In this document: positions 21,201 through 61,693 of the stretch, piece after piece
Numbering within the stretch: the first letter of the stretch is position 1
How the letters are laid out: each line of letters opens with the position of its first letter
Assembly (NCBI RefSeq): GCF_000385135.1
Contig: NZ_ARQM01000002.1
Span: forward strand, 1 to 64,000
Direction of reading: 5' to 3'
Source: Promicromonospora sukumoe 327MFSha3.1
Lineage (GTDB): Bacteria; Actinomycetota; Actinomycetes; Actinomycetales; Cellulomonadaceae
Length of the DNA stretch: 64,000 nt
Program-made: the position numbers and the translations under genes
Notes under the pieces: generated by a model
Databases searched by the model: none
Seen by the model: the letters and a program-made list of their open reading frames with translations, nothing else
What the model was told of the DNA's origin: nothing

Positions 21201-22006
21201 GCGGACTCCCCCGCATCAGAGGTCTCGACAGGCTCGACCAGCGCACCCCCGCTGGTCGAGCTTGTCGAGACCCCCGCCGGGACGCCCAGGTACGCCTCCT
21301 CGACGGCCGGGTCCCGGCGCACCTCCTCCGGGGTGCCGCACGCGATGACGTGCCCGAAGTCGAGCACCACCACGCGGTCGGCGACCTCCGCCACGAAGTC
21401 GACGTGGTGCTCGACGAGCAGCACGGAGCACCCGGCACCGGCGACGTCGCGCACCGTCCCCGCGAGACGGTCGATGTCGGCGGGCCCGAGCCCGCCGGCG
21501 GGCTCGTCCAGGAGCAGCAGCCGGGGCCGGGTGACCAGCGCCCGGGCGAGCGCCACGCGCTTGCGCTCGGGGTAGGGCAGGGTCCCGGCGGGGACGCCCG
21601 CCACGGCGTCGAGCCCGAGCGCGTCGAGCGTCTCGCGGGCGACGTCGGGCCCGGGAGACGGGCACACACCCGTCAGCGGCACCAGCACGTTCTCCAGCAC
21701 CGTGAGGCGGTCGAACAGCCCCAGCCCCTGCAGGGTCCGGGAGATCCCGGCCCCCACCAGCCCGGTGGCCGACGACGGCGCGGGCCGCCCGTCCACCCGG
21801 ACCCGGCCGTGCCGGGCGCGCACGAGGCCGCACACGGCGTTGAAGACCGTGGTCTTGCCGGCGCCGTTGGGGCCGATCAGCGCGACGGTCTCGCCGTCGG
21901 CCACGGAGAAGGACACGTCGGTGAGGGCGGTCAGGCCCCCGAAGGTCACGGTGAGCCCCGACACCTCCAGGCGGGGCGGGTCTGCTGTGCTGCTCGTCGT
22001 CGTCAT
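21197..22006 (-). CDS. LivG-type ABC importer ATPase
   Basis: First gene of the eight-gene operon. The 269-residue protein has Walker A GPNGAGKTTVFNAV, signature-region LPYPERKRVALARALV (LSGG replaced by LPYPE) and Walker B LLLLDEPAGGLGP. The last 25 residues, STSSTSGGALVEPVETS and beyond, come from an in-frame dispersed palindrome (21221-21272), so the natural C-terminus probably ended near AYLGVPAG. ATG 22006 (GAGG upstream) is preferred to the GTG two codons earlier. A TetR-type operator lies 40 bases upstream. Confidence 0.9.
   Translation of the reverse strand: MTTTSSTADPPRLEVSGLTVTFGGLTALTDVSFSVADGETVALIGPNGAGKTTVFNAVCGLVRARHGRVRVDGRPAPSSATGLVGAGISRTLQGLGLFDRLTVLENVLVPLTGVCPSPGPDVARETLDALGLDAVAGVPAGTLPYPERKRVALARALVTRPRLLLLDEPAGGLGPADIDRLAGTVRDVAGAGCSVLLVEHHVDFVAEVADRVVVLDFGHVIACGTPEEVRRDPAVEEAYLGVPAGVSTSSTSGGALVEPVETSDAGESA
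21221..21272. repeat. Dispersed palindrome inside the 3' end of livG
   Basis: Arms of 23 bases (21221-21243 and 21250-21272) are inverted copies with one mismatch and a 6-base loop. The left arm is identical to 1851-1873 in dnaE2. The coding strand gives STSSTSGGALVEPVETS, a stretch seen at the ends of many unrelated Micrococcales proteins. This marks a REP-like mobile or expanded palindrome. Confidence 0.85.
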
Positions 22007-42172: not shown

Positions 42173-43006
42173 CTACGCGAACGTCTCGTGACCCAGCACG
42201 GCGAGCAGGCGGATCTTCTCCTCGGCCTCGCTGTTCGGGGCGGGGGTCAGCACGAGGAGGGCCTGGGACTGGTCCTCGGTGAACAGCGCCTGGCAGTCGA
42301 CGTCGATGCGGCCGACCTCGGGGTGCACCAGCGTCTTGTGGTCCTCGAACCGGCGGGACACCTCGTGCAGCTCCCAGAGCCGCACGAACTCGGGACTCTG
42401 CCGCAGCAGGGCGCGCAGCACGTCGTCGGCGGGCGAGCCCGGGCAGGCCGCCGCGTGGGCCGCGCGCAGGGACGCGACCTGGCTGCGGGCCTGCCGCTCG
42501 TGGTCCTCGGGCGGGTACACCTCCCGGGAGGCCGGGTCGGTGAACCACCGGTAGGCGGAGCTGCGGGCCAGGCCCGTGGTGGGCGCCGGGCCGAAGATCG
42601 CCTCCGCCAGGCGGTTCTGCACGAGCGTCTCGCCCAGGCTCGAGAGAATGAGCGCCGGGGTGTCCTCGAGCCGGTCCAGCACGCGCAGCAGGGCGGGTGC
42701 CACGTGGGAGTCGGCGGGCGCGCGCCGGGGCGCGCCGTGCCCGGCGAGGCGGAACAGGTAGTCGCGCTCCTCGACGGTCAGGCGCAGCGCCCGCGCCAGG
42801 GCGGCGAGCATCTGCTCCGAGGGCTGCGGCCCGCGCTGCTGCTCCAGGCGCGCGTAGTAGTCCACGGACATCCCGGTCAGGGCGGCGACCTCCTCCCGGC
42901 GCAGCCCCGGCGCGCGGCGACGGGGCCCGGGCACCAGGCCGACGTCGGACGGGCGCAGCGCCTCCCGGCGTCGGCGGAGGAAGTCGGCGAGGGCTGCGCG
43001 GTTCAT
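42173..43006 (-). CDS. XRE-type regulator with MmyB-like ligand domain
   Basis: The 277-residue protein has an N-terminal Cro/C1 helix-turn-helix (APGLRREEVAALTGMSVDYYARLEQQRG). The C-terminal domain is typical of MmyB-like regulators (TPALILSSLGETLVQNRLAEAIFG, SSAYRWFTDPASREVYPPEDHERQARSQVASLRAAH). MmyB-like domains are reported to bind fatty acids. The divergent SDR gene is its probable target. ATG 43006 is used; an upstream alternative lies closer to the operator. Confidence 0.9.
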   Translation of the reverse strand: MNRAALADFLRRRREALRPSDVGLVPGPRRRAPGLRREEVAALTGMSVDYYARLEQQRGPQPSEQMLAALARALRLTVEERDYLFRLAGHGAPRRAPADSHVAPALLRVLDRLEDTPALILSSLGETLVQNRLAEAIFGPAPTTGLARSSAYRWFTDPASREVYPPEDHERQARSQVASLRAAHAAACPGSPADDVLRALLRQSPEFVRLWELHEVSRRFEDHKTLVHPEVGRIDVDCQALFTEDQSQALLVLTPAPNSEAEEKIRLLAVLGHETFA

Positions 43007-43033
43007 GCCCCCATCGTGCGCCGCGCGCGGCAC

Positions 43034-43064
43034 GTGAACCAGGGACCGCCGGTCCCTGGTTCAC
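43034..43064. promoter_or_regulatory. Perfect 31-bp operator between regulator and SDR genes
   Basis: GTGAACCAGGGACC and its exact inverse are separated by GCC. It occupies the centre of the 101-bp divergent region, 28 bases from the regulator ATG and 44 from the SDR ATG. Almost certainly the binding site of the MmyB-type regulator. Confidence 0.75.
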
Positions 43065-43107
43065 CGAGTCTCTCCCGCCGACGGCGCCGGGGCCGCACGG
43101 TGGAGCC

Positions 43108-43875
43108 ATGAACACATCCGGAAACACCGTCTTCATCCCCGGCGGCACGCGCGGCATCGGCCTCGCCCTCGCGGTCCGCCTCCAGGAGCTGGGCAACACC
43201 GTGGTCGTCGGCGGTCGCGACGTCGCCGTCCTGGACGCCCTGGCCGCCGAGCACGGGTTCGGTACCGTGCGCGTCGACACCAGCGACGCCGCCTCGATCG
43301 CCGCGGCGTCGGCCGACGTCATCCAGCGGTTCCCCGAGGTCAACGTGCTGGTGCCCATGGCCGGGATCATGCGCGCCGAGGACTGGCGTACCCCCGGCTT
43401 CCTGCCGGACGCCGAGGCCACGGTCGTCACCAACGTGCTGGGCCCGATCCGCCTGGTCGCGGCGTTCACCGAGCACCTGCAGAGCCGGCCGGCCGCGACG
43501 ATCCTCACCGTGTCGTCGGGCCTGGCGTTCTCGCCGCTGCGTGTGACGCCGACGTACAACGCGACCAAGGCCGCGATCCACATGCTGTCGGAGAGCGTCC
43601 GCCTGCAGCTCGCCGGCACCAGCGTGTCGGTGGTCGAGCTCGAGCCGCCGTCGGTGCAGACCGACCTGATGCCGGGGCAGGCGGACAACCCGCACGCGAT
43701 GCCGCTGGCCGAGTTCATCGACGAGGCGGTCTCGCTCCTGCAGAGCCGGCCGGACGCGCACGAGATCCAGGTGGAGCGGGTCAAGTTCCTCCGCTACGCG
43801 GAGGTCCGCGGCGACTACGACCAGGTCGTGGCCACGCTCAACGCCACCGACCCGCACGCGGCTGCCGTGAGCTGA
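43108..43875 (+). CDS. SDR oxidoreductase (DltE-like), target of the MmyB-type regulator
   Basis: NAD(P)-dependent dehydrogenase of 255 residues: GGTRGIG near residue 12, PMAG in place of NNAG, and Ser...YNATK (TVSSGLAFSPLRVTPTYNATK) at the active site. It is of the classical DltE-like branch. Substrate unknown. ATG 43108 has GGTGGAG directly upstream. A long palindromic hairpin follows the stop by 28 bases. Confidence 0.88.
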   Translation: MNTSGNTVFIPGGTRGIGLALAVRLQELGNTVVVGGRDVAVLDALAAEHGFGTVRVDTSDAASIAAASADVIQRFPEVNVLVPMAGIMRAEDWRTPGFLPDAEATVVTNVLGPIRLVAAFTEHLQSRPAATILTVSSGLAFSPLRVTPTYNATKAAIHMLSESVRLQLAGTSVSVVELEPPSVQTDLMPGQADNPHAMPLAEFIDEAVSLLQSRPDAHEIQVERVKFLRYAEVRGDYDQVVATLNATDPHAAAVS

Positions 43876-43903
43876 CCCGTCCGCCGACGGACCGCCGTCG
43901 ACG

Positions 43904-43966
43904 GAGACGACCATGCGGTTGCTGCCAGGGCGGGGTTCGCCCTGGCAGCAACCGCATGGTCGTCTC
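43904..43966. terminator. Long perfect palindrome between convergent genes (29-bp arms)
   Basis: Arms 43904-43932 and 43938-43966 are exact inverted copies (ends GAGACGACC/GGTCGTCTC) with loop GGGTT. It lies between the SDR gene (+) and the ABC exporter gene (-), so it can fold in either transcript. Far longer than ordinary terminators and without a T-run. One of four such structures in the window. Confidence 0.65.
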
Positions 43967-43992
43967 GTTGCCCGCGCGCGGCGGGCGCGACG

Positions 43993-46020
43993 TCACGTCG
44001 CCGCCGGCTCCTCCACCACCGGGGCCGCGAACTGGCTCGCGTAGAGGCGGGCGTAGGCGCCGTCCGCGGCGAGCAGGTCCTCGTGCGAGCCCTGCTCCAC
44101 GATGTCGCCGTGCTCCATCACGAGGATCACGTCGGCGTCGCGGATCGTGGACAGCCGGTGCGCGATGACGAACGACGTCCGGTCCTTGCGCAGCCGGTTC
44201 ATGGCCTCCTGGACCAGCACCTCGGTGCGGGTGTCCACCGACGACGTCGCCTCGTCGAGCACGAGGATCGCCGGGTCGGCCAGGAACGCCCGGGCGAGCG
44301 TGAGGAGCTGCTTCTCCCCCGCCGAGACCGACGAGCCCTCCTCGTCCACGACGGTGTCGTACCCGTCGGGCAGGGTCCGCACGAACGGGTCCACGTGGGT
44401 GGCCCGCGTGGCGGCGAGGAACTCTTCCTCGTCGACGGTGGCGCCATCCGGCACGCCGTACCGGAGGTTCTCCTCGATGGTGCCCTTGAACAGCCAGGTG
44501 TCCTGGAGCACCATCCCGACCGACGAGCGCAGGTCGTCGCGCGACATGTCCCGCGTGTCCACGCCGTCCAGGGTGATGCGGCCGCCGTCCACCTCGTAGA
44601 ACCGCATGAGGAGGTTGACCAGCGTCGTCTTGCCGGCGCCCGTGGGGCCCACGATGGCGATCGTCTGCCCGGGCTCCGCGACCAGGTTGAGCCCGGTGAT
44701 CAGCGGGCGCTCGGGCGTGTAGGAGAACGTGACGTCCTCGAACGCGACCCGGCCGCGCACCGGGACCACCTTCTGCGACTCGGCCGGGTCGGGCGACTGC
44801 TCCGGAGCGTCCAGCAGCTCGAACACGCGCTCCGCGGAGGCGACGCCGGACTGCAGCAGGTTCATCATCGAGGCCACCTGCGTCAGCGGCTGCGTGAACT
44901 GGCGCGAGTACTGGATGAACGCCTGCACGTCACCCAGCGACAGCGTGCCCGAGGCCACGCGCAGGCCGCCGACGACGGCCACGACCACGTAGTTCAGGTT
45001 CGCGAGGAAGCCCATGGCGGGCTGGATGGTGCCCGAGATGAACTGCGCCTTGAAGCTGGAGTCGTACAGCGCGCCGTTCTCCTCGGCGAACGCCTTGGCC
45101 GTGGACTCCTGGTGCCCGTAGACCTTCACGAGCGCGTGGCCCGTGAACGACTCCTCGATGTGCGCGTTCAGGCGCCCGGTGGCCGCCCACTGCTCCACGA
45201 ACTGCGGCTGGCTGCGCTTGGCGATCTGCGCCGTCAGGATCACCGACAGCGGCACGGTCACCAGCGCGACCAGGGCGAGGACCGGCGAGATCCAGAACAT
45301 CATGCCGAGCACGCCGATCACCGTCAGGACGGCGGTCACGAGCTGCGCGAGGGTCTGCGTGGTGGTCTGGGCCACGTTGTCGATGTCGTTGGTGACGCGC
45401 GAGAGGATCTCGCCGCGCTGGCGGGCGTCCACGTACGACAGCGGGATGCGGTGCAGCTTGGCCTCGACCTGGTCGCGCAGGTCACGCATGGTGCGCTGCA
45501 CGACGCCGGCGGTGATGCGCGACTGGAGCCACCCGAACAGGAACGCCCCGACGTACGCCGCGACCACCCAGCCGAGGGTCTGCATGAGCATCGTGAAGTC
45601 GATGCCCTGACCAGGCACGACGCCCACGACGCCGGACAGCAGGTCCGCCATCTGGTCCTGGCCCGCCGCGCGCAGCCCGGCCTCCGCCTCCTCCGTGGTC
45701 ACGCCCGAGGGCAGCTGCGCGCCCACGACGCCCGCGAAGATCACGTTCGTCGCGTTGCCCAGCAGCTTGGGCCCGAGCACGGTCAGCGCCACCGAGGCGA
45801 TGCCCAGCACCATCAGGACCACGACGTTCAGACGCTCGGGACGCAGCATGCCGGCGAACCGGCGCAGCGAGCCCTTGAAGTCCATCGGCTTCTGCACGGG
45901 CATACCCATGCCCATACCCATCGGTCCGGGGCCGCGCCCGGGGCCGCCGGGTCCACGCTGCGGCGCCGCCGTCGTCGTGCTCTCGCCCTGAGGCTTCTCT
46001 TCGTTGCTCACGCCGCTCAC
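43993..46020 (-). CDS. Heterodimeric ABC exporter, second half-transporter
   Basis: Multidrug/lipid-type exporter subunit of 675 residues: an N-terminal low-complexity Gly/Pro/Met tail, six membrane segments, and an ATPase domain with Walker A GPTGAGKTT and Walker B ILVLDEATSSVD (catalytic Glu present). The signature reads VSAGEKQLLTLAR instead of LSGGQ. The first subunit has the opposite defect, so the two form one degenerate and one canonical ATP site. Start overlaps the upstream gene by four bases. Confidence 0.92.
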   Translation of the reverse strand: MSGVSNEEKPQGESTTTAAPQRGPGGPGRGPGPMGMGMGMPVQKPMDFKGSLRRFAGMLRPERLNVVVLMVLGIASVALTVLGPKLLGNATNVIFAGVVGAQLPSGVTTEEAEAGLRAAGQDQMADLLSGVVGVVPGQGIDFTMLMQTLGWVVAAYVGAFLFGWLQSRITAGVVQRTMRDLRDQVEAKLHRIPLSYVDARQRGEILSRVTNDIDNVAQTTTQTLAQLVTAVLTVIGVLGMMFWISPVLALVALVTVPLSVILTAQIAKRSQPQFVEQWAATGRLNAHIEESFTGHALVKVYGHQESTAKAFAEENGALYDSSFKAQFISGTIQPAMGFLANLNYVVVAVVGGLRVASGTLSLGDVQAFIQYSRQFTQPLTQVASMMNLLQSGVASAERVFELLDAPEQSPDPAESQKVVPVRGRVAFEDVTFSYTPERPLITGLNLVAEPGQTIAIVGPTGAGKTTLVNLLMRFYEVDGGRITLDGVDTRDMSRDDLRSSVGMVLQDTWLFKGTIEENLRYGVPDGATVDEEEFLAATRATHVDPFVRTLPDGYDTVVDEEGSSVSAGEKQLLTLARAFLADPAILVLDEATSSVDTRTEVLVQEAMNRLRKDRTSFVIAHRLSTIRDADVILVMEHGDIVEQGSHEDLLAADGAYARLYASQFAAPVVEEPAAT

Positions 46021-47813
46021 GCCGCCTCCTCCAAACTCATCTGGGACGTCACGATCTCCTGGTACGTCGGGTTGTCCGCCAGCAGCTGCGCGTGCGTGCC
46101 GCGGCCGACGATGCGCCCGTGGTCGAGCACCAGGATCTGCTCGGCGTCACGGATGGTCGCCACGCGCTGGGCGACGACGATCACCGTCGCGTCGCGGGTC
46201 TGCGGCCGCAGGGCCGCCCGCAGGCGCGCGTCGGTCGCGTAGTCCAGGGCGGAGAAGCTGTCATCGAACAGGTAGATGCGGGGCTTGCGGATCACGGCGC
46301 GCGCGATGGCGAGCCGCTGGCGCTGGCCGCCGGAGAACGTCGAGCCGCCCTGCGCCACCTCCGACTCCAGGCCGTCCGGCAGCGCCTCGATGAAGTCGCG
46401 CGCCTGCGCCACCTCCAGCGCGGCCCACATCTCCTCCTCGGTGGCGTCGGACTTGCCGTACCGCAGGTTGTCCGCGACGGTCCCGGAGAACAGGAACGCC
46501 TTCTGCGGCACCAGCCCCATGAGCGAACCGAGGTCGCGTTGCAGCAGGTCCCGGACGTCGACGCCGTCCACCCGGACGGTACCGCCGGTGGCGTCGAACA
46601 GGCGCGGCACCAGGTTGAGCAGCGTCGACTTGCCCGACCCGGTCGAGCCGATGATCGCGGTGATCTGGCCCGGCACGGCCTCGAACGACAGCTCGTGCAG
46701 CACCGGCTCCTCGGCGCCCGGGTAGCGGAACTCGACGTCCTCGAAGGTGACGCGGCCGCTCGGACCCGCCACGACGCCGTCGGGCGAACCGTTGTGCTCG
46801 GGCGAGCCGTTCTGCTCGGCGAGCGAGCCCGGCAGGGCGACGGGCGACTCGGGGTCGACCACGGACGGCTCGGTGTCCAGGACCTCCCCGATGCGCTCCG
46901 CCGCGACGGCGGCGCGCGGGATCATCATGAAGATCATCGTGGACATCATCACGGCCATGAGGATGTACATGATGTAGCTCAGGAACGCGGTCAGGGAGCC
47001 GATCTCCATCTCCCCGGCCTGGATCTCGTGGGCGCCGAACCACAGCACGGCCACCGACGACAGGTTCATGATCAGCATGACCACCGGGAACGTGAGCGCC
47101 ATCAGGCGGCCGGCGCGCAGCGAGGTGTCGAACAGCTCCTCGTTGACCACGCCGAACCGCTCGGTCTCGCGGCGCTCCCGCACGAACGCCCGGACCACAC
47201 GCAGGCCCGTGATCTGCTCGCGCAGCACGGAGTTGATGGCGTCGATGCGCTTCTGCATACGCCGGAAGTGCGGCACCATGCGCCAGACGATGACGCCCGC
47301 GGTGGCGGCCAGGACCGGCACGATGACGAGCAGCAGGCCCGACATCGACACGTCCTCCGACAGCGCCAGGATGACGCCGCCGATCAGCATGATCGGCGCC
47401 ATCACCATGATGGTGAACGTCATCAGCACGGTCATCTGCACCTGCTGGACGTCGTTCGTGCTGCGTGTGATCAGCGTCGGCGCCCCGAACCGGGCCATCT
47501 CGCGCGCGGAGTAGGTCTGGACGGAGTGGAAGACGTCGCGCCGCAGGTCACGGCCGAACGCCGTGGCGACCTGCGCGCCGAAGTAGACGGCGATGACCGA
47601 CGCGACGACCTGGCCCAGCGAGACGACCAGCATCCAGCCGCCGGTGCTCCAGATGTACCCGATGTCACCGGGCACCACGCCGTTGTCGATGATGTCGGCG
47701 TTCAGGCTGGGCAGATACAGGGCCGCGAGCGTCTGCACCAGCTGGAGGACCAGCACCGCGACCACCGCCCAGCGGTACGGGCCCAGATATTTCCGGGCAA
47801 GAGCGACAAGCAT
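46017..47813 (-). CDS. Heterodimeric ABC exporter, first half-transporter (degenerate site)
   Basis: The 598-residue protein has six membrane segments and an ATPase domain with Walker A GSTGSGKST, signature FSGGQRQRLAIARAV and Walker B IYLFDDSFSALD. The catalytic Glu after Walker B is Asp, as in the degenerate subunit of TM287/288-type exporters. The linker NGSPEHNGSPDG is encoded by a short tandem repeat near 46780-46815. Second gene of the tetR-led operon; its ATG overlaps the TetR stop (TGATG). Confidence 0.92.
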   Translation of the reverse strand: MLVALARKYLGPYRWAVVAVLVLQLVQTLAALYLPSLNADIIDNGVVPGDIGYIWSTGGWMLVVSLGQVVASVIAVYFGAQVATAFGRDLRRDVFHSVQTYSAREMARFGAPTLITRSTNDVQQVQMTVLMTFTIMVMAPIMLIGGVILALSEDVSMSGLLLVIVPVLAATAGVIVWRMVPHFRRMQKRIDAINSVLREQITGLRVVRAFVRERRETERFGVVNEELFDTSLRAGRLMALTFPVVMLIMNLSSVAVLWFGAHEIQAGEMEIGSLTAFLSYIMYILMAVMMSTMIFMMIPRAAVAAERIGEVLDTEPSVVDPESPVALPGSLAEQNGSPEHNGSPDGVVAGPSGRVTFEDVEFRYPGAEEPVLHELSFEAVPGQITAIIGSTGSGKSTLLNLVPRLFDATGGTVRVDGVDVRDLLQRDLGSLMGLVPQKAFLFSGTVADNLRYGKSDATEEEMWAALEVAQARDFIEALPDGLESEVAQGGSTFSGGQRQRLAIARAVIRKPRIYLFDDSFSALDYATDARLRAALRPQTRDATVIVVAQRVATIRDAEQILVLDHGRIVGRGTHAQLLADNPTYQEIVTSQMSLEEAA

Positions 47814-48655
47814 CAGGAGTTCCCTTCAGGGCTGGGGGTTGGAGAACCTGGTGCGCCTGGTCCCGCGGTGGAGGCTGCACCTTCGGCAGCGTCGGGGCCA
47901 GACTTTTTTGCGGGGCCGGCGAGGCCGTTGACGAGGGCGTCGGCCAGGACGTCGGCCGGCACCACGGGCTGCAGGTGGTCGATCCGCACGTGCGCGCCGG
48001 CGATGGCCGACTCGACCAGCGAGATCGCCACCTCGACGGGTACCCGCAGCCGGTGCGCGTCCGGCGCGAGGACGGCGGTGATCCCCTCGACCGTAGCCGC
48101 ATGCTGCTGGGCACGCTGGTCCAGCAGCGTCTTGCGGTAGGCGAGCATGCGCTCGTGGTGGTCGGCGGGCGTCCCGGGTCCGGCACTGGGCTGGCCGGGC
48201 GGCCCCGGCGGGACGGCGCGGGGGCCCGGCGGGCCCGGCGGGCCCGGCGGCCCGGGCGGCACGATGGGCATTCCCGGCGCGCCGGGCGCTGGCGCCATGC
48301 GGCGCAGGATCGACATCCAGCGCATGACCTCGGCCACCCGGTGGCGGCCCAGCTCGATCACGAGCTCCAGACGCCGCTCGAGCGGCAGCGCGGAGTCGAT
48401 GGCGGTGAGCTCGGCGAGGGTCTCCTCGGGCCGGCCCGCCCGCGCCAGGCCCTCGACGGCGACGGCGCCGACCAGCGCCGTCTTGTCGCCGAACGCCCGG
48501 AACAGCGTGCCCTCCGCGACGCCGGCGGCCTGCGCCAGCTCGCGGGAGGTGACGTCGTGGCCGCGCTCCGCGACCAGCGGGAGCACCGCGTCCACGATCG
48601 CCGCCTTGCGGTCCTCCGGGGTCATCCGCGAGGCGCGCGGCCGTACGTTGTCCAT
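47813..48655 (-). CDS. TetR repressor of the exporter, with collagen-like linker
   Basis: The 280-residue protein has an N-terminal TetR helix-turn-helix (TSRELAQAAGVAEGTLFRAFGDKTALVGAV). A collagen-like stretch follows (PPGPPGPPGPPGPRAVPPG, about residues 128-155). Another Pro/Gly-rich tail ends the protein. ATG 48655 is chosen since the next upstream ATG would lie inside the operator at 48672-48687. First gene of the operon with the two ABC genes, so probably an autoregulated drug or metabolite sensor. Confidence 0.87.
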   Translation of the reverse strand: MDNVRPRASRMTPEDRKAAIVDAVLPLVAERGHDVTSRELAQAAGVAEGTLFRAFGDKTALVGAVAVEGLARAGRPEETLAELTAIDSALPLERRLELVIELGRHRVAEVMRWMSILRRMAPAPGAPGMPIVPPGPPGPPGPPGPRAVPPGPPGQPSAGPGTPADHHERMLAYRKTLLDQRAQQHAATVEGITAVLAPDAHRLRVPVEVAISLVESAIAGAHVRIDHLQPVVPADVLADALVNGLAGPAKKSGPDAAEGAASTAGPGAPGSPTPSPEGNS

Positions 48656-48671
48656 GCCGGGAACAGTAAAT

Positions 48672-48687
48672 GAGTGAGCACTCACTC
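48672..48687. promoter_or_regulatory. TetR operator GAGTGAG-CA-CTCACTC
   Basis: Perfect 7-bp inverted repeat 17 bases upstream of the TetR ATG. This class of GAGTGAG palindrome is common before actinobacterial tetR-ABC exporter operons. Repressor bound here would block transcription of the whole operon. Confidence 0.78.
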
Positions 48688-48716
48688 CGCAACTTCTTAT
48701 GCCGGCAGCAGACAGC

Positions 48717-48754
48717 AGTGGGGCCGAGACACCTCGCGGTGCCTCGGCCCCACT
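48717..48754 (-). terminator. Hairpin terminator behind the SPFH gene
   Basis: AGTGGGGCCGAG and CTCGGCCCCACT form a 12-bp stem that extends to 17 bp with one mismatch around a short loop. It lies about 40 bases behind the stop at 48795 and before the tetR promoter. Confidence 0.7.
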
Positions 48755-48794
48755 TCTCCCAGGGTGCTAGCTCCCCCGGGTCCTCAGCTCTACC

Positions 48795-49943
48795 TCAGCC
48801 GGCCGGCGGTGCCGGGGGCACCGGCGGGGGCGGCGTCGAACCGCCCGGGCGCTGGCCGCGCTCGGACTCGGTGTCGAACGGGTCGCCCGACCGCGTGCCG
48901 GCGCTCGTCGCGTCGGCCGTGGCTGCCTCGGCCTGCCGCTGCGCCTCGGCGAGCGCCTCGGCGGGGTCCGGCAGCAGGGGCTCGTCGAGCACGGAGTCGA
49001 TCGGCCCGCGCGGGCCGGTCGGGCCCTCGCCCGGCGGGGGCGGGGGGACGGCCGGGCCGGCGCCGCCGCCGAAGCCGGAGGCGATGTTGCCCAGCGCGGC
49101 GGTGAACTCCGTGGGGATGACCCAGGTGGTGTTCGAGGTGCCGTTCGCGATCTGCGGCAGCGTCTGCAGGTACTGGTAGGCCAGCAGCTTCGGGTCGGCG
49201 TCACCGCGGTGGATGGCCTCGAAGACCTGGAGGATGGCGCGGGACTCACCCTCGGCACGGAGGATCTGCGCCTGGGCGTCACCCTCGGCCTTCAGGATCT
49301 CGGACTGCTTCTGACCCTCGGCCGTGAGGATGGCGGACTGCTTGACACCCTCCGCGGTGAGGATCGCGGCACGCCGGTCACGCTCGGCGCGCATCTGCTG
49401 CTCCATGGAGCCCTGCACCGACGGCGGCGGGTCGATGGACTTGAGCTCGACGCGGTTGACGCGGATACCCCAGCGCCCGGTCGCCTCGTCGAGCACGCCA
49501 CGCAGCTGGCCGTTGATCTGGTCACGGCTGGTCAGCGTCTGCTCGAGGTCCATCGAGCCGATCACGTTACGCAGCGTGGTGACGGTGAGCTGCTCGATGG
49601 CGGTGATGTAGTTCGCGATCTCGTAGACCGCGGACTTGGCGTCCGTCACCTGGAAGTAGATGACGGTGTCGATCTCGACCACCAGGTTGTCGCTGGTGAT
49701 CACGGGCTGGGGCGGGAACGAGACGACCTGCTCGCGCAGGTCCACGCCGGCGCGGACGCGGTCCACGAACGGCACCAGCACGTGCAGGCCCGGGTCGAGC
49801 GTCTTGGAGTACCGACCCAGGCGCTCGACCACGAGCGCCACCGACTGAGGAACGATCCGCACGGCGCGGATCACCGCGACGATACCGACGATCACGACCA
49901 GGGCAATGATCAGATAGAGCAGGACTTGCCCGAATGACTCCAC
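48795..49943 (-). CDS. SPFH/stomatin-like membrane protein (QmcA/paraslipin type)
   Basis: The 382-residue protein has one N-terminal membrane segment (LYLIIALVVIVGIVAVIRAV). The SPFH domain follows (VPQSVALVVERLGRYSKTLDPGLHVLVPF). A coiled-coil region contains four 11-residue repeats of the ILTAEGxKQSx type (about residues 193-235). The Pro/Gly-rich C-terminal tail is about 100 residues. Such proteins form membrane-domain scaffolds and are usually paired with NfeD proteins, as here. Confidence 0.92.
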   Translation of the reverse strand: MESFGQVLLYLIIALVVIVGIVAVIRAVRIVPQSVALVVERLGRYSKTLDPGLHVLVPFVDRVRAGVDLREQVVSFPPQPVITSDNLVVEIDTVIYFQVTDAKSAVYEIANYITAIEQLTVTTLRNVIGSMDLEQTLTSRDQINGQLRGVLDEATGRWGIRVNRVELKSIDPPPSVQGSMEQQMRAERDRRAAILTAEGVKQSAILTAEGQKQSEILKAEGDAQAQILRAEGESRAILQVFEAIHRGDADPKLLAYQYLQTLPQIANGTSNTTWVIPTEFTAALGNIASGFGGGAGPAVPPPPPGEGPTGPRGPIDSVLDEPLLPDPAEALAEAQRQAEAATADATSAGTRSGDPFDTESERGQRPGGSTPPPPVPPAPPAG

Positions 49944-50051
49944 GAGTTCTCCTTACGCGGGCACCTTGGCCCGCAGGCGGTTTGACGCACAGAACGCTTC
50001 TGACTGGACTGTCTGGGACAACACAAAAGGGGGCGCCCAGGCGCCAGGCGG

Positions 50052-50480
50052 CTACGCCGGCTCGACGACGGCGGTGGCGCCGTCGATCTGGACCACACGA
50101 ACGCTAGTGCCGGCGGGCAGCAGAGGCGACCCGGGCACGGAGCGCGCGCTCCAGACCTCTCCGCTGAGCTTGATCAGCCCCGACGCGGTGCTGACCTCCT
50201 GGACCACCGATGCCGTGCGACCCACGTTCGCCTCGGCGTTGGTGGGTGCCTTCGGCGTGTTGTTGCGCAGGTGCCGGATCAGCGTGGGCCGAAGCGTCAC
50301 GAGCAGCACCACCGACGCCACGACGAACACGATGGCCTGCATCCAGAGCGGGGCCCCCGCGCCGTTCGCGACGGCCGCGGCCAGCGCGCCGCCCGCGAAC
50401 ATGATGAAGACGAAGTCCAACGACAAGAGCTCGATCAGCGCGAAGATCAGCGCCGCTCCTACCCACCACAACCACGCCAT
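50052..50480 (-). CDS. NfeD-like membrane protein
   Basis: The 142-residue partner of the SPFH protein. Two or three membrane segments fill the first 65 residues (WLWWVGAALIFALIELLSLDFVFIMFAGGALAAAV). A C-terminal OB-fold domain follows (NVGRTASVVQEVSTASGLIKLSGEVWSAR, VRVVQIDGATAVVEP). The long NfeD protease domain is absent, so this is the short type. It lies 108 bases upstream of the SPFH gene, probably in one operon. Confidence 0.9.
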   Translation of the reverse strand: MAWLWWVGAALIFALIELLSLDFVFIMFAGGALAAAVANGAGAPLWMQAIVFVVASVVLLVTLRPTLIRHLRNNTPKAPTNAEANVGRTASVVQEVSTASGLIKLSGEVWSARSVPGSPLLPAGTSVRVVQIDGATAVVEPA

Positions 50481-50692
50481 GGGTTGCTCCCTCCGAGCGT
50501 CCACTCCGGTTGGCGACCGGGCGCCGTCGGAACCTCTCCGACGGCGGGCCCTCGCGGTGAAATTACCGCTACCTCGGACCTTTGCCCGGACTTTACCAAG
50601 GACCACTGACACAGCGGTAGTGAAATCGCCGTTTCAGAAGCTTTTCCCGGAGCCCCCGGAGATTCCAGGCCAGGGGTGACGGAAAGACGCGG
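50481..50692. other. Intergenic region before nfeD
   Basis: No gene is seen. It holds the promoter of the nfeD-SPFH pair and the end of the ATPase gene. TACCGCT and AGCGGTA occur as an inverted pair roughly 45 bases apart. No strong terminator or operator is evident. Confidence 0.4.
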
Positions 50693-51478
50693 TCAGCGGG
50701 CGGCGCGAGCGAGCCAGCGACCGCCGCCGTGCGCGACGACGAGGGGCAGCCCGAAGGCCGCCGAGAGGTTGTCCGCGGTGAGGACCTCCTCGATCGGGCC
50801 GGCCGCCTGGATGCCCGCCTTCTTCATCAGCAGCAGGTGCGTGAAGCCCGGCGGGATCTCCTCGACGTGGTGCGTCACGTGGATCAGCACCGGGGAGGCC
50901 GGGTCGTCCGCGAGCGCGGACAGCGTGGCCACCAGCTCCTCGCGGCCGCCGAGGTCGAGGCCCGCGCCGGGCTCGTCGAGCAGCAGCAGCTCGGGGTCGG
51001 TCATGAGCGCCCGCGCGATCTGCACGCGCTTGCGCTCGCCCTCGGACAGGGTGCCGTAGGTGCGGTCGGCGAGGTGGTCGACGTCGAACGAGGCGAGCAG
51101 GTCCTTGGCCCGCTGCTCGTCGAGCTCGTCGTAGCTCTCGCGCCAGCGGCCGGTCACGCCGTAGGCGGCGGTCAGCACGACGTCGCGCACGGTCTCCGCC
51201 GTCGGCAGCCGCTCGGCGAGCGCCGCGCTGGCGATGCCGATGCGCGGGCGCAGCTCGAACACGTCGACGCGGCCGAGGGTCGCGTCGAGGATGTCGGCGG
51301 TGCCCGACGTCGGGTGCAGGCGCGCCGCGACGATCTGGAGCAGGGTCGTCTTGCCCGCGCCGTTGGGCCCGAGAACGATCCAGCGCTCTCCCTCGTTCAC
51401 CTGCCAGTCCACGGAATCGAGGATGGTCGAGGTGCCGCGACGGACGGTGACGCCCGCAAGGTGGAGAACCGAGCTCAT
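50693..51478 (-). CDS. Orphan ABC ATPase (YlmA/ModF-like)
   Basis: The 261-residue ATPase has Walker A GPNGAGKTTLLQIV, signature LSEGERKRVQIARAL, Walker B LLLLDEPGAGLDLGGRE and H-loop HVTHHVEEIP. The final block HLLLMKKAGIQAAGPIEEVLT matches YlmA-type ATPases. No membrane subunit is encoded nearby, so it may not be a transporter component. ATG 51478 is used, with a GTG two codons upstream as alternative. Confidence 0.88.
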   Translation of the reverse strand: MSSVLHLAGVTVRRGTSTILDSVDWQVNEGERWIVLGPNGAGKTTLLQIVAARLHPTSGTADILDATLGRVDVFELRPRIGIASAALAERLPTAETVRDVVLTAAYGVTGRWRESYDELDEQRAKDLLASFDVDHLADRTYGTLSEGERKRVQIARALMTDPELLLLDEPGAGLDLGGREELVATLSALADDPASPVLIHVTHHVEEIPPGFTHLLLMKKAGIQAAGPIEEVLTADNLSAAFGLPLVVAHGGGRWLARAAR

Positions 51479-51521
51479 GGGCACCGACCCTACCTGAGAA
51501 GGTGTCATCTACAGTGCTGCG

Positions 51522-52283
51522 GTGGACATCGAACAGGACCTCCCCCGGAGCGTGCTGCTCGCCCTGTGGCTGCAGGGCATAGGCGACACCTCGGACGCCG
51601 TGAAGTCCGTGGTGGGCGACGACGAGCCGCACACCGTCGAGGGGCTGCCCGGCTTCGCCGACGGAACGGACCTCGACACCCTCTTCACGGCCTGGACCGA
51701 GGGGCCGCGCGAGGTGTGCGCGCTGCTCCCGGCGCCCGGTGACGCCTCGGGCGTCCCCGCGGCCGCCAACCACGACGCCACCGAGGCCGGTGAGTGCGTG
51801 GTGGTCACGACGCCCGCCGGGAGCTGGGCCGCCGTGCCCAGGGTCCAGGCGTTCGGCAGCCACATCGAGCCCGGCCACCTGGTGACGTGGCGGGTGGTGG
51901 CGATCCCGGAGTGGACCACGCTGGTGCAGGGCACCATCGGCTCGGTGTCCGACGCCGAGCGCGAGCTGCGCACGAGCCTCATGACGGCCACGGAGGCCCT
52001 GGACCAGCTCGACGTGGCCCGGTGGCGCGACGACGCCGCCGACGCGATCGAGCGGATCCGCTCGACCAGCACGTCGTCGTGGCCCGTGCCGCACCTGGAC
52101 GGGCGGCGCGCCCGCGTGCTGGACCTCGCCAACCGGCTGCGCGCCATCGTCGCCCTGGGCACGGTGGACGACGGAGGCGCGGTCAACGTCTTCCAGGTCG
52201 ACCAGCGCTCCACGGCGCTGCGCGAGGTGGACCGCACCGCGCGGCACGCGATGAGCGCGGCGACCTACGGCCGGGTGGCCTGA
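51522..52283 (+). CDS. Conserved actinobacterial protein of unknown function
   Basis: Not recognised beyond being a soluble, acidic protein of 253 residues. It has no signal peptide, no membrane segment and no catalytic motif that I can name. The C-terminal half is probably helical (ERELRTSLMTATEALDQLDVARWRDDAADAIERI). GTG 51522 is the only sensible start. It ends three bases before the convergent glgA stop, with no terminator between. Confidence 0.7.
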   Translation: MDIEQDLPRSVLLALWLQGIGDTSDAVKSVVGDDEPHTVEGLPGFADGTDLDTLFTAWTEGPREVCALLPAPGDASGVPAAANHDATEAGECVVVTTPAGSWAAVPRVQAFGSHIEPGHLVTWRVVAIPEWTTLVQGTIGSVSDAERELRTSLMTATEALDQLDVARWRDDAADAIERIRSTSTSSWPVPHLDGRRARVLDLANRLRAIVALGTVDDGGAVNVFQVDQRSTALREVDRTARHAMSAATYGRVA

Positions 52284-52286
52284 CCG

Positions 52287-53588
52287 CTAGACGCTCGCCA
52301 GCACCCGCCGGTAGACGTCCATGGTGCGGTCCGCGATGGCCGACCAGGCGAAGTGGTCCTCCGCCCGGCGGCGGCCCGCGGCCCCCAGCGCCGCAGCGGC
52401 CTCGGGGTCGGTGGCCACGCGGGTCAGCGCGGCGGCCAGGTCGGCCACGAACCGGTCGGGGTCCAGCGGTGTGCCCGTGCCGTCGTCGGACTGCTCGATC
52501 GGGACCAGCAGGCCGGTGACGCCGTCGTCGACCACCTCGGGGATGCCGCCGGTGGCGGTGCCCACGACGGGCAGGCCCACCGCCATCGCCTCCAGGTTCA
52601 CGATGCCGAGCGGCTCGTAGACGCTCGGGCAGACGAACACGGTGCACGCGGCCAGCACGGCGATCAGGTCGGGCCGCGGGAGCATCTCCTCGATCCAGAC
52701 GACGCCGGTGCGGGTCTCGCGCAGGCGCTCGACCAGGCCCCGGACCTCGGCCATGATCTCCGGCGTGTCCGGCGCCCCGGCGCACAGCACGAGCTGCACC
52801 TCGGGCGGCAGCTCGGCGGCCGCGCGCAGCAGGTACGGCAGGCCCTTCTGCCGCGTGATCCGGCCGACGAACACGACGGCGGGGCGGTCCGGGTCGATGC
52901 CGTGGCGGAGCACGGTCGCCTCCGCGGCGGCGTTGGCCTCGGCGTCGTCGGCGGCGGGACGGCGCCAGCCCGACAGGTCGATGCCGTTGTGCACCACGTG
53001 CACGCGCTCGGGGTCGAGCTCCGGGTAGACCCGCAGGATGTCGGCCCGCATGCCCGCCGAGACCGCGATGACGCCGGCGGCGCCCAGGTAGGCGGTGCGC
53101 TCGGCCCACGAGGAGAGCGCGTAGCCGCCGCCGAGCTGCTCGGCCTTCCACGGGCGCAGGGGCTCCAGCGAGTGCGCGGTGACGACGTGGGGCACGCCGT
53201 GCAGCAGGCCGCCCAGGTGGCCCGCCATGTTGGCGTACCAGGTGTGGGAGTGCAGCAGGTCGGCGCCCGCGACGTCGTCGGCCATCACCAGGTCGGTGCC
53301 CAGGGTGGCCAGGGCGGCGTTGGCGCCCGCGAGCGCCGTCGGCGTCGTGTAGCCGGTGACGCCGGAGGCCTCGGTCGCGGCGTCGCGCGGGCCGTCGAAG
53401 CAGCGGACGCGGACATCGGCGTGCTGTCGCAGGACCGCGGCCAGCTCGGCGACGTGGACGCCGGCGCCGCCGTACACGTTCGGCGGGAACTCGCGGGTGA
53501 GCAGGTCCACGCGGAGCGCGCCGTCGGGCCGGAGCTCGGGGGCGGGGCCGGCGGTGGCGGGAGCGGTGGCGGCGGGAAGGTCGGGCAC
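52287..53588 (-). CDS. glgA: Actinobacterial glycogen synthase (GT4 type)
   Basis: The 433-residue glycosyltransferase extends alpha-1,4-glucan or makes maltose-1-phosphate from ADP-glucose; actinobacterial GT4 members (GlgM) do the latter. Motifs are REFPPNVYGGAGVHVAEL, HSHTWYANMAGHLGG, VVFVGRITRQKGLPYLL and PSVYEPLGIVNLEAMAVGLPVVG (retaining-GT acidic motif). Divergent from glgC with 74 bases between, the standard arrangement for this pathway. Confidence 0.9.
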   Translation of the reverse strand: MPDLPAATAPATAGPAPELRPDGALRVDLLTREFPPNVYGGAGVHVAELAAVLRQHADVRVRCFDGPRDAATEASGVTGYTTPTALAGANAALATLGTDLVMADDVAGADLLHSHTWYANMAGHLGGLLHGVPHVVTAHSLEPLRPWKAEQLGGGYALSSWAERTAYLGAAGVIAVSAGMRADILRVYPELDPERVHVVHNGIDLSGWRRPAADDAEANAAAEATVLRHGIDPDRPAVVFVGRITRQKGLPYLLRAAAELPPEVQLVLCAGAPDTPEIMAEVRGLVERLRETRTGVVWIEEMLPRPDLIAVLAACTVFVCPSVYEPLGIVNLEAMAVGLPVVGTATGGIPEVVDDGVTGLLVPIEQSDDGTGTPLDPDRFVADLAAALTRVATDPEAAAALGAAGRRRAEDHFAWSAIADRTMDVYRRVLASV

Positions 53589-53662
53589 GATGCCAACCTA
53601 GCGTGCGGCACGTCTCAGCGTGCCACCTGACGGAACCGGCGGAAAGGCCTTAATGTCACCGT

Positions 53663-54904: not shown

Positions 54905-54963
54905 CTGGGCTGGGGCGCTGCCGCGCGGCCGCGCTGCGCGGGCGGCGCAGACGGCCGCGGCGT

Positions 54964-55019
54964 CGAACGTAGGGTTGGTCGCACTCTGAGCGCTCAGAGT
55001 GCGACCAACCCTACGTTCG
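54964..55019. terminator. Long perfect palindrome without loop (28-bp arms)
   Basis: Arms 54964-54991 and 54992-55019 are exact inverted copies (ends CGAACGTAGG/CCTACGTTCG, centre GAGCGCTC). It sits between glgC and serB, both on the plus strand, and probably terminates glgC. The complete lack of a spacer would allow cruciform extrusion or RNA folding with a strained loop. Confidence 0.6.
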
Positions 55020-55124
55020 GCCCCCAGGCCACGCCAAGGCCAGCCGCGCGCCCCACCGGCCCGGCAGCGCGCAGCGCGTGGACAGCGCCGCGCGCCGGCG
55101 CGCCGACCCGGCACACTGGTGCCC

Positions 55125-55745
55125 GTGAAGCGACTCATCGTGTCCGACGCCGACTCCACGTTCTTCCGCCAGGAGGTCATCGAGCTGATCGCCGAGCACG
55201 CCGGCACCCGCGACGAGGTCGCGGCAGTGACCGAGCGGGCGATGCGGGGCGAGCTCGACTTCGCCGGGTCGCTGCGCGAGCGCGTGGCGACGCTGGCGGG
55301 CGTGCCCGTCGAGGCGCTGGACAAGGTCCGCGCGGCGGTGGAGCTGATGCCGGGCGCCCGCGAGCTCGTGGCCGGGTGCCAGGCGCGCGGCTGGGCGTTC
55401 GGGCTGGTGTCGGGCGGGTTCGAGGAGATCGCCGTGCCGATCGCGCGCGAGCTGGGGATCGAGCTCGTGCGGGCCAACCGGCTGGAGGTCGCCCACGGCG
55501 TGCTGACCGGCCGCACCGTCGGCCCCGTCATCGACCGGGCCGCGAAGGCCGCGACGCTCCGGGAGTGGGCCGCGCAGACCGGGGTGCCGATGGAGCAGAC
55601 GGTCGCCGTGGGCGACGGCGCGAACGACCTCGACATGATCGGCGCCGCCGGCGTCGGCGTCGCGTTCAACGCCAAGCCCCTCGTGCGCGAGCAGGCCCCC
55701 CACGTGATCGAGGACCGCCTCGACAACCTGCTGGCCCTCCTCTGA
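55125..55745 (+). CDS. serB: Phosphoserine phosphatase (HAD family)
   Basis: Final step of serine synthesis: phosphoserine to serine. The 206-residue HAD enzyme has DADST with nucleophile Asp8 and acid Asp10 (SerB usually DxDST). SGGFEEIAVPIARELGI contains the motif-II serine, and motif III is GDGANDLDMI. The cap domain is small, and the N-terminal ACT domain of longer SerB proteins is absent. GTG 55125 is the likely start since it places DxDST near the N-terminus. Confidence 0.9.
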   Translation: MKRLIVSDADSTFFRQEVIELIAEHAGTRDEVAAVTERAMRGELDFAGSLRERVATLAGVPVEALDKVRAAVELMPGARELVAGCQARGWAFGLVSGGFEEIAVPIARELGIELVRANRLEVAHGVLTGRTVGPVIDRAAKAATLREWAAQTGVPMEQTVAVGDGANDLDMIGAAGVGVAFNAKPLVREQAPHVIEDRLDNLLALL

Positions 55746-55754
55746 GCCGAGTCC

Positions 55755-55834
55755 TGTCAGACACGAACGGACGTGTCAGACGTACAGGTCACCGGAGTGA
55801 TCCGTACGTCTGACACGTCCGTTCGTGTCTGACA
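55755..55834. terminator. Long perfect palindrome between convergent genes (31-bp arms)
   Basis: Arms 55755-55785 and 55804-55834 are exact inverted copies (ends TGTCAGACACG/CGTGTCTGACA). The 18-base loop can itself pair through TCAC/GTGA. Each arm contains TGTCAGAC twice. It separates serB (+) from the sixA-like gene (-). Confidence 0.65.
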
Positions 55835-55844
55835 CCGAGGGGCG

Positions 55845-56384: not shown

Positions 56385-56401
56385 CAGTGCCTCCTGCCCA
56401 T

Positions 56402-57172: not shown

Positions 57173-57332
57173 GTTGTCCTTCCGATCAGGCGCAGGCGTG
57201 CCGGAGCAACCCCTGTGCTGGGTGCGAGCGTAATGCGGATTGCAGCGTGGAACGAAACTCCGCGCCGTGTCACGCGCGGGGAATGTTGGATATGTACCGA
57301 CGAAACCGCTGGTGGCGGCGTCAGACTACGGG
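57173..57332. other. Spacer between fabG and fabI
   Basis: No gene is seen. CCGCGC (57260-57265) and GCGCGG (57274-57279) can form a small hairpin. The spacer may hold a separate fabI promoter. Confidence 0.4.
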
Positions 57333-59999: not shown

Positions 60000-60052
60000 G
60001 ACGAGGGGGTAACGCTGAGCGAGCATTGCTCGCTCAGCGTTACCCCCTCGTC
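60000..60052. terminator. Long perfect palindrome between convergent genes (25-bp arms)
   Basis: Arms 60000-60024 and 60028-60052 are exact inverted copies (ends GACGAGGGGG/CCCCCTCGTC) with loop ATT. It separates the SURF1 gene (+) from the ABC-F gene (-). Confidence 0.65.
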
Positions 60053-60094: not shown

Positions 60095-61693
60095 TCAGGC
60101 CAGGGAGACGAGCTCCTGGTAGCTGTCGTTCCAGAGGTCCTCGTCGCCGTCGGGCAGCAGGAGCACGCGCTCGGGCTCCAGCGCCTCGACCGCGCCGTCG
60201 TCGTGGGTCACCATGACGACCGCGCCCTCGTACGTCTTGAGCGCCCCGAGGATCTCGGCGCGGGACGCCGGGTCGAGGTTGTTGGTGGGCTCGTCGAGGA
60301 GCAGCACGTTGGCGCCCGAGACGACGATCGTCGCCAGAGCGAGCCGCGTCTTCTCACCGCCGGACAGCACGTGCGCCGGCTTCTCGGCGTCGTCCCCGCT
60401 GAACAGGAACGAGCCGAGCACCGAGCGCACCTGGGTGTCGGTGAGGTCGGGCGCGGCGTGCCGCAGGTTCTCCACGACGGTCGCGTCCATGTCGAGCGTG
60501 TCGTGCTCCTGGGCGTAGTAGCCGAGCTTGAGGCCGTGGCCGGGCTCGACCTCGCCGGTGTCCGGGGCCTCGACGCCCGCGAGGATGCGCAGCAGCGTCG
60601 TCTTGCCCGCACCGTTGAAGCCGAGGATCACGACGCGCGACCCGCGGTCGATCGCCAGGTCGACCCCGGCGAACACCTCCTGCGACCCGTACGCCTTGGA
60701 CAGCCCGCTCGCGGTCAGCGGCGTGCGCCCGCAGGGCGCCGGCGTCGGGAAGCGGAGCTTGGCCACGCGGTCGGCGGCGCGCTCGTTCTCCAGGCCGCCG
60801 AGCATCTTCTCGGCGCGCTTGATCATGTTCTGGGCGGCGGTCGCCTTGGTCGCCTTGGCGCGCATCTTCTCGGCCTGGGCGAGCAGGGTGCCGGCCTTCT
60901 TCTCCGCGTTCGCCCGCTCGCGCCGACGACGCCGCTCGTCCGTCTCGCGCTGCTCCAGGTACGTGTCCCAGCCCATGTTGTACTGGTCGAGCTCGCCCCG
61001 GTTCGCGTCCAGGTGGAACACCTTGTTCACGGTGGCACGCAGCAGGTCGACGTCGTGGCTGATCACGATGAACCCGCCGTTGTACGCCTTGAGGTAGTCG
61101 CGCAGCCAGATGATCGAGTCGGCGTCGAGGTGGTTGGTGGGCTCGTCCAGCAGCAGCGTCTCGACGCCGCTGAACAGGATGCGCGCGAGCTCGATGCGGC
61201 GGCGCTGACCGCCCGAGAGGGTGCTCAGCGGCTGGCCCAGCACGCGCTCGTCCAGGCCGAGGTTCGCCGTGATGATCTGTGCCTCGGACTCGGCGGCGTA
61301 CCCGCCGGCGGCGAGGAACCGCGCCTCCAGCTTGGGGTAGCGCTCCAGCGCCGCGGCCTGCGTGTCCGGGTCGGCCGACGCCATCTCGCCCTCGGTCGCG
61401 CGCATCTGCGCGATCACGCGGTCGAGGTTGCGCGCGGAGAGCACGCGGTCCATCGCCACGACCTCGAGGTCGCCCGTGCGCGGGTCCTGCGGCAGGTAGC
61501 CGATGTCCGTGCCGCGCACGATCTGGCCGCCCGTGGGCTGGGTCTCCCCCGCGAGGGTCTTGGTCAGCGTGGTCTTGCCGGCGCCGTTACGGCCCACGAG
61601 GCCGATCCGGTCGCCCGAGGCGACCCGGAAGGTGGCCTCGCTCAGCAGCACGCGCGCGCCGACGCGCAGCTCGACGCCATGGGCAGTGATCAC
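60095..61693 (-). CDS. ABC-F family ATPase (ribosome-associated type)
   Basis: Soluble tandem ATPase of 532 residues. The first domain has GRNGAGKTTLTKTL, LSGGQRRRIELARIL and LLLDEPTNHLD. The charged linker between the domains (LEQRETDERRRRRERANAEKKAG) is typical of ABC-F. The second domain has GFNGAGKTTLLRIL, LSGGEKTRLALAT and LLLDEPTNNLD. Relatives act on the ribosome (EttA-type translation factors or antibiotic-protection proteins). GTG 61693 has GAGGA upstream. Confidence 0.93.
   Translation of the reverse strand: MITAHGVELRVGARVLLSEATFRVASGDRIGLVGRNGAGKTTLTKTLAGETQPTGGQIVRGTDIGYLPQDPRTGDLEVVAMDRVLSARNLDRVIAQMRATEGEMASADPDTQAAALERYPKLEARFLAAGGYAAESEAQIITANLGLDERVLGQPLSTLSGGQRRRIELARILFSGVETLLLDEPTNHLDADSIIWLRDYLKAYNGGFIVISHDVDLLRATVNKVFHLDANRGELDQYNMGWDTYLEQRETDERRRRRERANAEKKAGTLLAQAEKMRAKATKATAAQNMIKRAEKMLGGLENERAADRVAKLRFPTPAPCGRTPLTASGLSKAYGSQEVFAGVDLAIDRGSRVVILGFNGAGKTTLLRILAGVEAPDTGEVEPGHGLKLGYYAQEHDTLDMDATVVENLRHAAPDLTDTQVRSVLGSFLFSGDDAEKPAHVLSGGEKTRLALATIVVSGANVLLLDEPTNNLDPASRAEILGALKTYEGAVVMVTHDDGAVEALEPERVLLLPDGDEDLWNDSYQELVSLA

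Follow-up and report, generated by a model that had tools for sequence, protein, structure and literature searches.

Where a genome carries several long inverted repeats whose arms match without a single mismatch, the question is what these sequences are and what keeps the two arms of each identical. The window analysed here, a stretch of 64,000 nucleotides from Promicromonospora sukumoe 327MFSha3.1 (contig C2:1-64000 of a 6.25-Mb genome in 18 contigs, labelled G000 below), contains four such palindromes. A preliminary description of the window held that they are unrelated to each other in sequence, and that perfect arms call for either recent formation or an active mechanism such as arm-to-arm conversion. 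The closest named relative is P. panici, to which the GlgC of the window is 97% identical (in a list of 80 loci). The palindromes and the genes around them are:

21221..21272, no strand: fifth palindrome, family D; 23-bp arms with 1 mismatch; absent from the list in the preliminary description
43108..43875, plus strand: short-chain dehydrogenase (SDR) gene; Pfam PF00106 on the longer ORF 42697-43875; start from our own caller
43904..43966, no strand: palindrome of family C; 29/29 pairs, 5-nt loop; flanked by convergent SDR and ABC transporter genes
43993..46020, minus strand: ABC transporter gene, convergent to the family C palindrome; Pfam PF00664 and PF00005
53663..54904, plus strand: glgC-like gene (nucleotidyl transferase) upstream of the family A palindrome; Pfam PF00483; start at 53756 in our own caller
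54964..55019, no strand: palindrome of family A; 28/28 pairs, no loop; 3' of glgC and 5' of the codirectional HAD-phosphatase gene
55119..55745, plus strand: HAD phosphatase gene between the family A and B palindromes; Pfam PF12710 on 55125-55745; start from our own caller
55755..55834, no strand: palindrome of family B; 38-bp arm, outer 31 pairs perfect; 2 mismatches close to the loop
58993..59940, plus strand: SURF1-family gene; Pfam PF02104 on the longer ORF 58837-59940; start from our own caller
60000..60052, no strand: palindrome of family L; 26/26 pairs, 1-nt loop; flanked by convergent SURF1 and ABC-F-like genes
60095..61693, minus strand: ABC ATPase gene, convergent to the family L palindrome; Pfam PF00005 and PF12848 on 60095-61744

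The four palindromes first described are present, with 29, 28, 31 and 26 perfect pairs, and hairpins of this kind are beyond chance: 400 kb of the same genome contain 68 with a score of at least 14, versus none in one 400-kb second-order Markov sequence. As RNA, the palindromes of families C, A, B and L are predicted to fold with -73.3, -68.9, -76.4 and -57.1 kcal/mol (z -10.5 to -11.9). Gene contexts were taken from a simple, self-written caller based on ORFs and codon usage, which gives convergent, codirectional, convergent and convergent for 43904, 54964, 55755 and 60000, the same placement as first described (every one at the 3' end of a gene, and three of them flanked by convergent genes). 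The stops of the short-chain dehydrogenase and SURF1-family genes lie 28 and 59 nt ahead of the family C and family L palindromes. That of family B is flanked by the convergent HAD phosphatase gene, presumably SerB-like, and a gene weakly matching histidine-phosphatase; the ABC ATPase gene next to family L is one that we take to be ABC-F-like. The glgC-like gene served as synteny anchor. The family D palindrome is close to the 3' end of a minus-strand gene, and inside that gene according to the ORF-based caller. Shorter hairpins can also be seen at 7642-7692, 16586-16622, 43034-43064 and 48717-48754, the one at 16586 falling inside a called gene.

Dispersed palindrome families

When the genome was searched with each palindrome and its flanks, each gave a separate set of matches, usually on both strands, which means that most matching places are themselves palindromic. 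The four are members of separate dispersed palindrome families. The statement that their sequences are unrelated therefore stands among the four but is incomplete, as each has relatives elsewhere in the genome. As examples, relatives of family C are found at C17:7478, C10:727890, C2:78206, C12:469817 and C11:429071, and family A has many relatives with clusters among them. A covariance model of family B has at least 67 matches in the genome, up to two per copy and thus at least 34 copies, and an exact pattern of family D with 19-bp arms has 36 copies.

A survey of 1.264 Mb (the window, C10:1-800000 and C11:1-400000, about a fifth of the genome) found 136 palindromes with a score of at least 18, and 118 of these fall into 11 families with 2 to 19 members, leaving 18 singletons. 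By proportional extrapolation there would be about 580 family copies genome-wide. The arms of the 118 have a median length of 27 bp (19-50), 56 of the 118 are perfect, and their G+C content is 0.61, compared with 0.733 in 400 kb of the genome. Over the 10 nt flanking the arms, mean identity is just 0.28-0.33, so that on average the repeated unit is the palindrome itself; by eye, some copies have common partial units beyond it. The density at a score of at least 18 is 10.8 per 100 kb here versus 1.8 in 79 glgC-region loci of other genera, and stretches of five Promicromonospora relatives have 3.7-12.2 per 100 kb. At the gathering score, Rfam has no match in the window.

Several features of the copies deserve mention. 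Family A has clusters of at least three copies about 95-225 bp apart, at C10:375614-376341, C3:128122-128453, C11:1011301-1011767, C10:2070449-2070939 and C11:355686-356074, and some of those at C3:128k look chimeric by eye, with arms from differing variants. In families B, E, G, K and D the arms contain, again by eye, boxes of 8-10 bp that recur about 16-21 bp apart, and at times these boxes run on past one end of the palindrome, as though the arms lengthened by tandem units. An identical 66-bp palindrome, by eye of family E, is present at two DUF222 loci (L270 and L272) that are on separate contigs. DUF222 genes, which we take to be of the 13E12 type, were considered and rejected; they gave 25 matches, several per gene, and a palindrome scoring at least 16 was present at 3 of the 12 loci examined.

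Families differ widely in where they occur. In what follows, match counts can be as much as double the copy counts, because a palindrome is usually hit on each strand. Of 91 genomes in the taxonomic family, 19 are matched by the covariance model of family B, including all seven sampled Promicromonospora (11 to at least 67 matches); outside the genus there are 0-10 matches per genome, except for 46 in G059. The copies read in G059, which belongs to another genus, are a diverged family B palindrome, and several come in pairs 61 bp apart (e.g. C32:155228 and 155289). Family F matches in 4 of 61 genomes, with at least 86 in each of G000 and G011, 63 in G003 and 2 in one genome of another genus, and with none in G006, which is of the same genus. 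The exact palindrome of family D, found 36 times in its own genome, occurs once in one of 148 other genomes of the order (none of them from its own genus). The patchy distribution of B, F and D suggests gain and loss of whole families. The exact patterns of families B and F were found in no viral contig.

Placement relative to genes

In the 1.264 Mb, convergent intergenic space (20.9 kb) contains 60 palindromes with a score of at least 20, codirectional space (88.3 kb) 48 and divergent space (41.9 kb) 6, with another 4 inside called genes. Non-random placement relative to genes was a test set in advance, and with 60 convergent versus 6 divergent the enrichment is clear (p about 2e-22). Among codirectional family copies, 44 of 54 are closer to the upstream stop than to the next start, at a median of 29.5 nt past the stop (n=54).

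No U-tract follows the hairpins. The mean is 1.28 T in the 8 nt after the 54 codirectional copies and 1.5 T in 8 nt on both sides of the 55 convergent ones, and a terminator scan of 43000-62000 (loops of 3-8 nt, 5 T in 8 required) picked none of the four palindromes. They are thus not textbook intrinsic terminators. As the preliminary description proposed, they may be bidirectional terminators or substrates for RNase III.

Arms that change together

The other outcome named in advance as speaking against the first description, arms that diverge freely, is not what is seen between species. In nine families, mismatches between the arms of one copy affect 1.2-6.8% of pairs, versus a difference of 4.1-33% between copies. 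Both sides of a pair have changed at 10 of 22 pairs in the alignment of family B, 10 of 30 in F and 14 of 30 in A, and the covariation scores of these three families were each reached by 0 of 500 shuffles, which ignore relatedness. A measure of further pair types is not unusual for family F (reached in 176 of 500 shuffles). It could be asked if concerted arms merely result from having selected perfect palindromes in the first place. This is not the whole reason, because among 156 copies outside family D that were located via one arm only, 129 had a palindrome with a loose score of at least 18 (using a looser mismatch penalty). In family D the arms are often unpaired, with 38 of 65 copies scoring below 10.

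The pattern is also seen between species. In 40 orthologous pairs of the same family there are 83 double Watson-Crick changes, 62 single and 8 other changes and 808 unchanged pairs; with independent sides, about 5 doubles would be expected. These pairs have a common history and are not independent, and when each site and family is represented by a single pair (20 pairs), the counts are 26 double, 35 single and 7 other changes. Active maintenance of arm identity, in some form, is supported. As a general cause, recent formation is not supported: 118 of the 136 palindromes are in repeat families, and several are common to species that have diverged by 4-12% in aligned parts and show compensatory changes.

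Different families at the same gene end

Orthologous sites were compared in stretches of 13 Promicromonospora genomes, six of them with 100-196 kb and the rest with at most 20 kb. Members of a site group score at least 16, and inverted repeats whose loop exceeds 12 nt escape the finder. Palindromes are present in two or more genomes in 18 site groups, and in 7 of the 18 different species have different families. As an example, the site at 99686 has family D in G000, another family in G004 and G010, and family B in G008. In a similar case, the glgC end has family A in G000, G002, G003, G004, G007 and G010, family F in G009 and G012, another repeat in G001, a long-looped inverted repeat (by eye) in G005 and G006, and no palindrome in G008 and G011. 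In the named P. panici locus, neither the end of glgC nor that of the SerB-like gene (sites A and B) bears a palindrome scoring at least 14. At the 55755 site, G010 has a palindrome with perfect 40-bp arms that differs from G000 by indels mirrored in both arms, and in G004 just part of the right arm is left. The groups of the 43904 site and of G004:97052 are probably one site, split by anchors.

A further 143 anchored comparisons gave no palindrome scoring at least 16 at the corresponding position, and some of these seemingly empty sites contain long-looped inverted repeats missed by the finder. No clean empty site could be placed in the comparisons inspected; the intergenic flanks were too diverged for the ends of an insertion to be found. 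Occupancy was counted as 107 occupied and 71 empty against a background of 42 of 311 regions for codirectional sites, and as 56 occupied and 64 empty against 30 of 111 for convergent sites, but all pairs in linked groups enter these counts, which are therefore inflated and not relied on.

It is worth noting that at the glgC 3' end, L176 (G004) and L177 (G010) have about 4 kb of extra DNA with several long ORFs between two family A palindromes, where G000 has one family A palindrome. Palindromes that recombine with each other may in this way come to flank inserted DNA. At the 3' end of the SerB-like gene in G005 and G006 (L180 and L181), a palindrome of yet another family (Q, by eye) adjoins an ORF that, judged by eye, is like a DUF559-type nuclease, and the copy in G006 looks fragmentary. 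A DUF559-like cognate nuclease beside the family Q palindromes was considered and rejected; the ORF had been named by eye, and PF04480 is unmatched in the genome of the window.

What the palindromes may be

The most probable reading, to which we give roughly 0.6, is that these are a REP-like class of unusually long palindromes acting as bidirectional hairpins at transcript 3' ends and kept perfect by selection, probably together with arm-to-arm templating; the function is judged from position and structure, and the odds we attach to the different explanations overlap, so that their total is not one. Each palindrome is one member of a palindromic repeat family that is dispersed and lineage-specific, with at least 11 such families in about a fifth of the genome, and the units occupy gene 3' ends, by preference between convergent genes. 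The transcript would fold into a hairpin of 19-50 bp on either strand, which may define or protect the mRNA 3' end. Because there is no U-tract, Rho or another factor would have to do the terminating. The units appear to be functionally interchangeable, which would be why a given gene end can bear one family in one species and another family in a related species. Changes that disrupt an arm would be removed or compensated, and template-switching during replication probably copies one arm of the hairpin onto the other, so that the arms would stay complementary. What counts against this reading are the 143 comparisons without a palindrome, the 6 divergent and 4 in-gene palindromes, and the unpaired arms of family D.

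A bolder version would make the units interchangeable mobile transcript ends. These would be self-spreading, with copying of the palindrome only, and they would invade 3' ends, replace one another and be kept perfect by template-switching. We regard this as possible, with the balance tilted against it.

Another and, in our view, unlikely explanation is that these are ordinary terminators, their arms paired by selection on the RNA alone, with the likeness within families due to convergence or to a sequence-specific function. Placement at 3' ends and strong RNA folding agree with it, and compensatory evolution is known in terminators of Bacillus cereus (PMC5381666). So does an excess of G-U over A-C mismatches on the transcript strand of codirectional copies in the own genome (30 versus 11, p 0.004; 28 versus 10 without repeats), which fits RNA selection. 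Convergent copies of the own genome have 14 G-U and 19 A-C. The excess is not repeated in five relatives (8 G-U versus 9 A-C), and the asymmetry was rejected as proof of RNA selection; a strand-biased C-to-T mutation rate would also produce such a pattern. Against pairing by RNA selection alone stand the missing U-tract, the 11 families that are alike beyond pairing, and the share of double switches that are transversional. These make up 35 of 83, or 11 of 26 in the reduced set, versus 21% in the B. cereus terminators as given in PMC5381666 (p 0.015). Transversional doubles point to templating, since no passage through G-U is possible. Adjacent double switches are also more frequent than random (15 versus 9.2, p 0.02), and there is one clear indel pair mirrored in both arms, between G000 and G010.

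Arm-to-arm conversion, which the preliminary description had offered as its example of an active mechanism, is thus favoured by the transversional doubles, the adjacent doubles and the mirrored indel pair, while selection at the RNA level alone could also be enough; the clustering and the transversions may reflect loosely constrained positions. We read the changes as RNA-level selection plus DNA templating, the templating not being proven. Work on the histories of rRNA genes proposed that hairpins arise and are maintained through template switching (PMC8794818), and a quasi-palindrome template switch, which turns imperfect inverted repeats into perfect ones, may maintain RNA hairpins (PMC8794818; PMC7202029). 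The likeness is that such a switch makes arms perfect; the difference is that its targets here would be numerous copies of repeats lying at the ends of genes.

Another possibility, and a rather improbable one, is that the units are MITEs, remnants of cut-and-paste transposons with the arms as terminal inverted repeats. They are inverted-repeat units and their distribution is patchy, family F for example being abundant in three Promicromonospora genomes and unmatched in a fourth. However, the 118 copies give no signal of target-site duplication: for lengths of 3 to 8 nt, 17, 7, 3, 0, 0 and 0 were observed, with shuffled means of 18.6, 6.0, 1.4, 0.4, 0.1 and 0.0. No clear autonomous parent element flanked by arms was found in the 1.264 Mb either, leaving aside ten distant pairings of family D and one of family A.

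Classical REP elements mobilised by a RAYT (a tyrosine transposase of the IS200/IS605 type) would explain the high copy number, the lineage-specific families, the placement after genes or between convergent ones and the complementary stem variants, all of which are reported for REPs (PMC3733652; PMC2817692). We think this has a slim chance. PF01797 has no match in the own genome, while the controls match in 5 of 14 genomes, and a RAYT or IS200 transposase was accordingly rejected as the mobiliser. There is no one-sided tag, with GTAG within 8 nt of 4 of 236 ends and CGTC of 9, compared with 12 and 2 for two control words. The stems of REPs are described as mostly 6-9 bp, with 12-13 bp in one family (PMC3733652), and the arms here are 19-50 bp long.

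The palindromes could also be DNA sites for chromosome-organising or repeat-binding proteins rather than RNA elements, to which we attach similarly little weight. In the four families measured, conservation is higher in the arms than in the centres, and the spaced boxes of 8-10 bp (about 16-21 bp apart, by eye) would suit such sites, but eleven unrelated sequences would require several binders and the avoidance of divergent regions would most simply be a transcript 3'-end effect. Finally, perfect palindromes are known to arise from snap-back synthesis, but an assembly or snap-back artefact has a negligible chance, as the same families and sites, differing in compensatory ways, are found in several Promicromonospora genomes.

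If the preferred reading of REP-like 3'-end hairpins is right, the genus would be a natural laboratory in which slow two-step selection could be told from one-step DNA templating as the source of compensatory changes, and it would bear on how GC-rich actinobacteria end their transcripts without U-tracts. With probably hundreds of long and nearly perfect hairpins in several families, there would be more informative sites across close species than short terminators offer. That one gene end can bear different families would suggest that repeat elements can supply transcript ends.

Comparison with known systems

The closest likeness is to REP elements, which are also dispersed intergenic palindromes in high copy (here 118 in 1.264 Mb), with many families, placement at gene ends and paired stem variants (PMC3733652; PMC2817692). 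The differences are that the palindromes here have arms of 19-50 bp, about half of them perfect, with no one-sided tag, no match to PF01797 and at least 11 families in the genome. Arm length, the lack of a tag and the missing tyrosine transposase set them apart from the tagged, RAYT-linked class, although the CGTC REPs, too, are described as having no transposase of their own (PMC3733652). REPs in Actinomycetota are not new as such, since RepRanger counted REP candidates in three of them (PMC12306157). Our literature search, made mostly outside subscription papers, found no description of these families in Promicromonospora or its family, which is weak evidence of absence.

A second likeness is to the 'I-shaped' terminators without poly-U described for mycobacteria (PMC12288462), where a stable hairpin follows the stop without a U-tract, as in the families here and in the four palindromes of the window. 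In the passages of that review considered here they are not portrayed as dispersed sequence families, and the palindromes here are predicted hairpins. U-tract-less termination is debated in mycobacteria, as the same review cites a paper whose title has the mycobacterial polymerase needing a U-tract.

The TRIT of mycobacteria is reportedly one motif, whereas here there are eleven families which differ between species. It is given as a recurrent terminator model downstream of genes (RNIE, Gardner 2011, cited in PMC3526491). In both cases, then, a recurrent terminator or terminator-like hairpin lies downstream of genes in an actinobacterium. DNA uptake words are short, with one per genome, and in this they differ from the palindromes here. 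The likeness is that terminator hairpins have been described as built from DNA uptake sequences (PMC2267715, citing Kingsford 2007), that is, hairpins made from a dispersed repeat. The palindromes described here are best seen as a variant of REP-like palindromes that, judging by position and structure, probably works like a bidirectional 3'-end hairpin.
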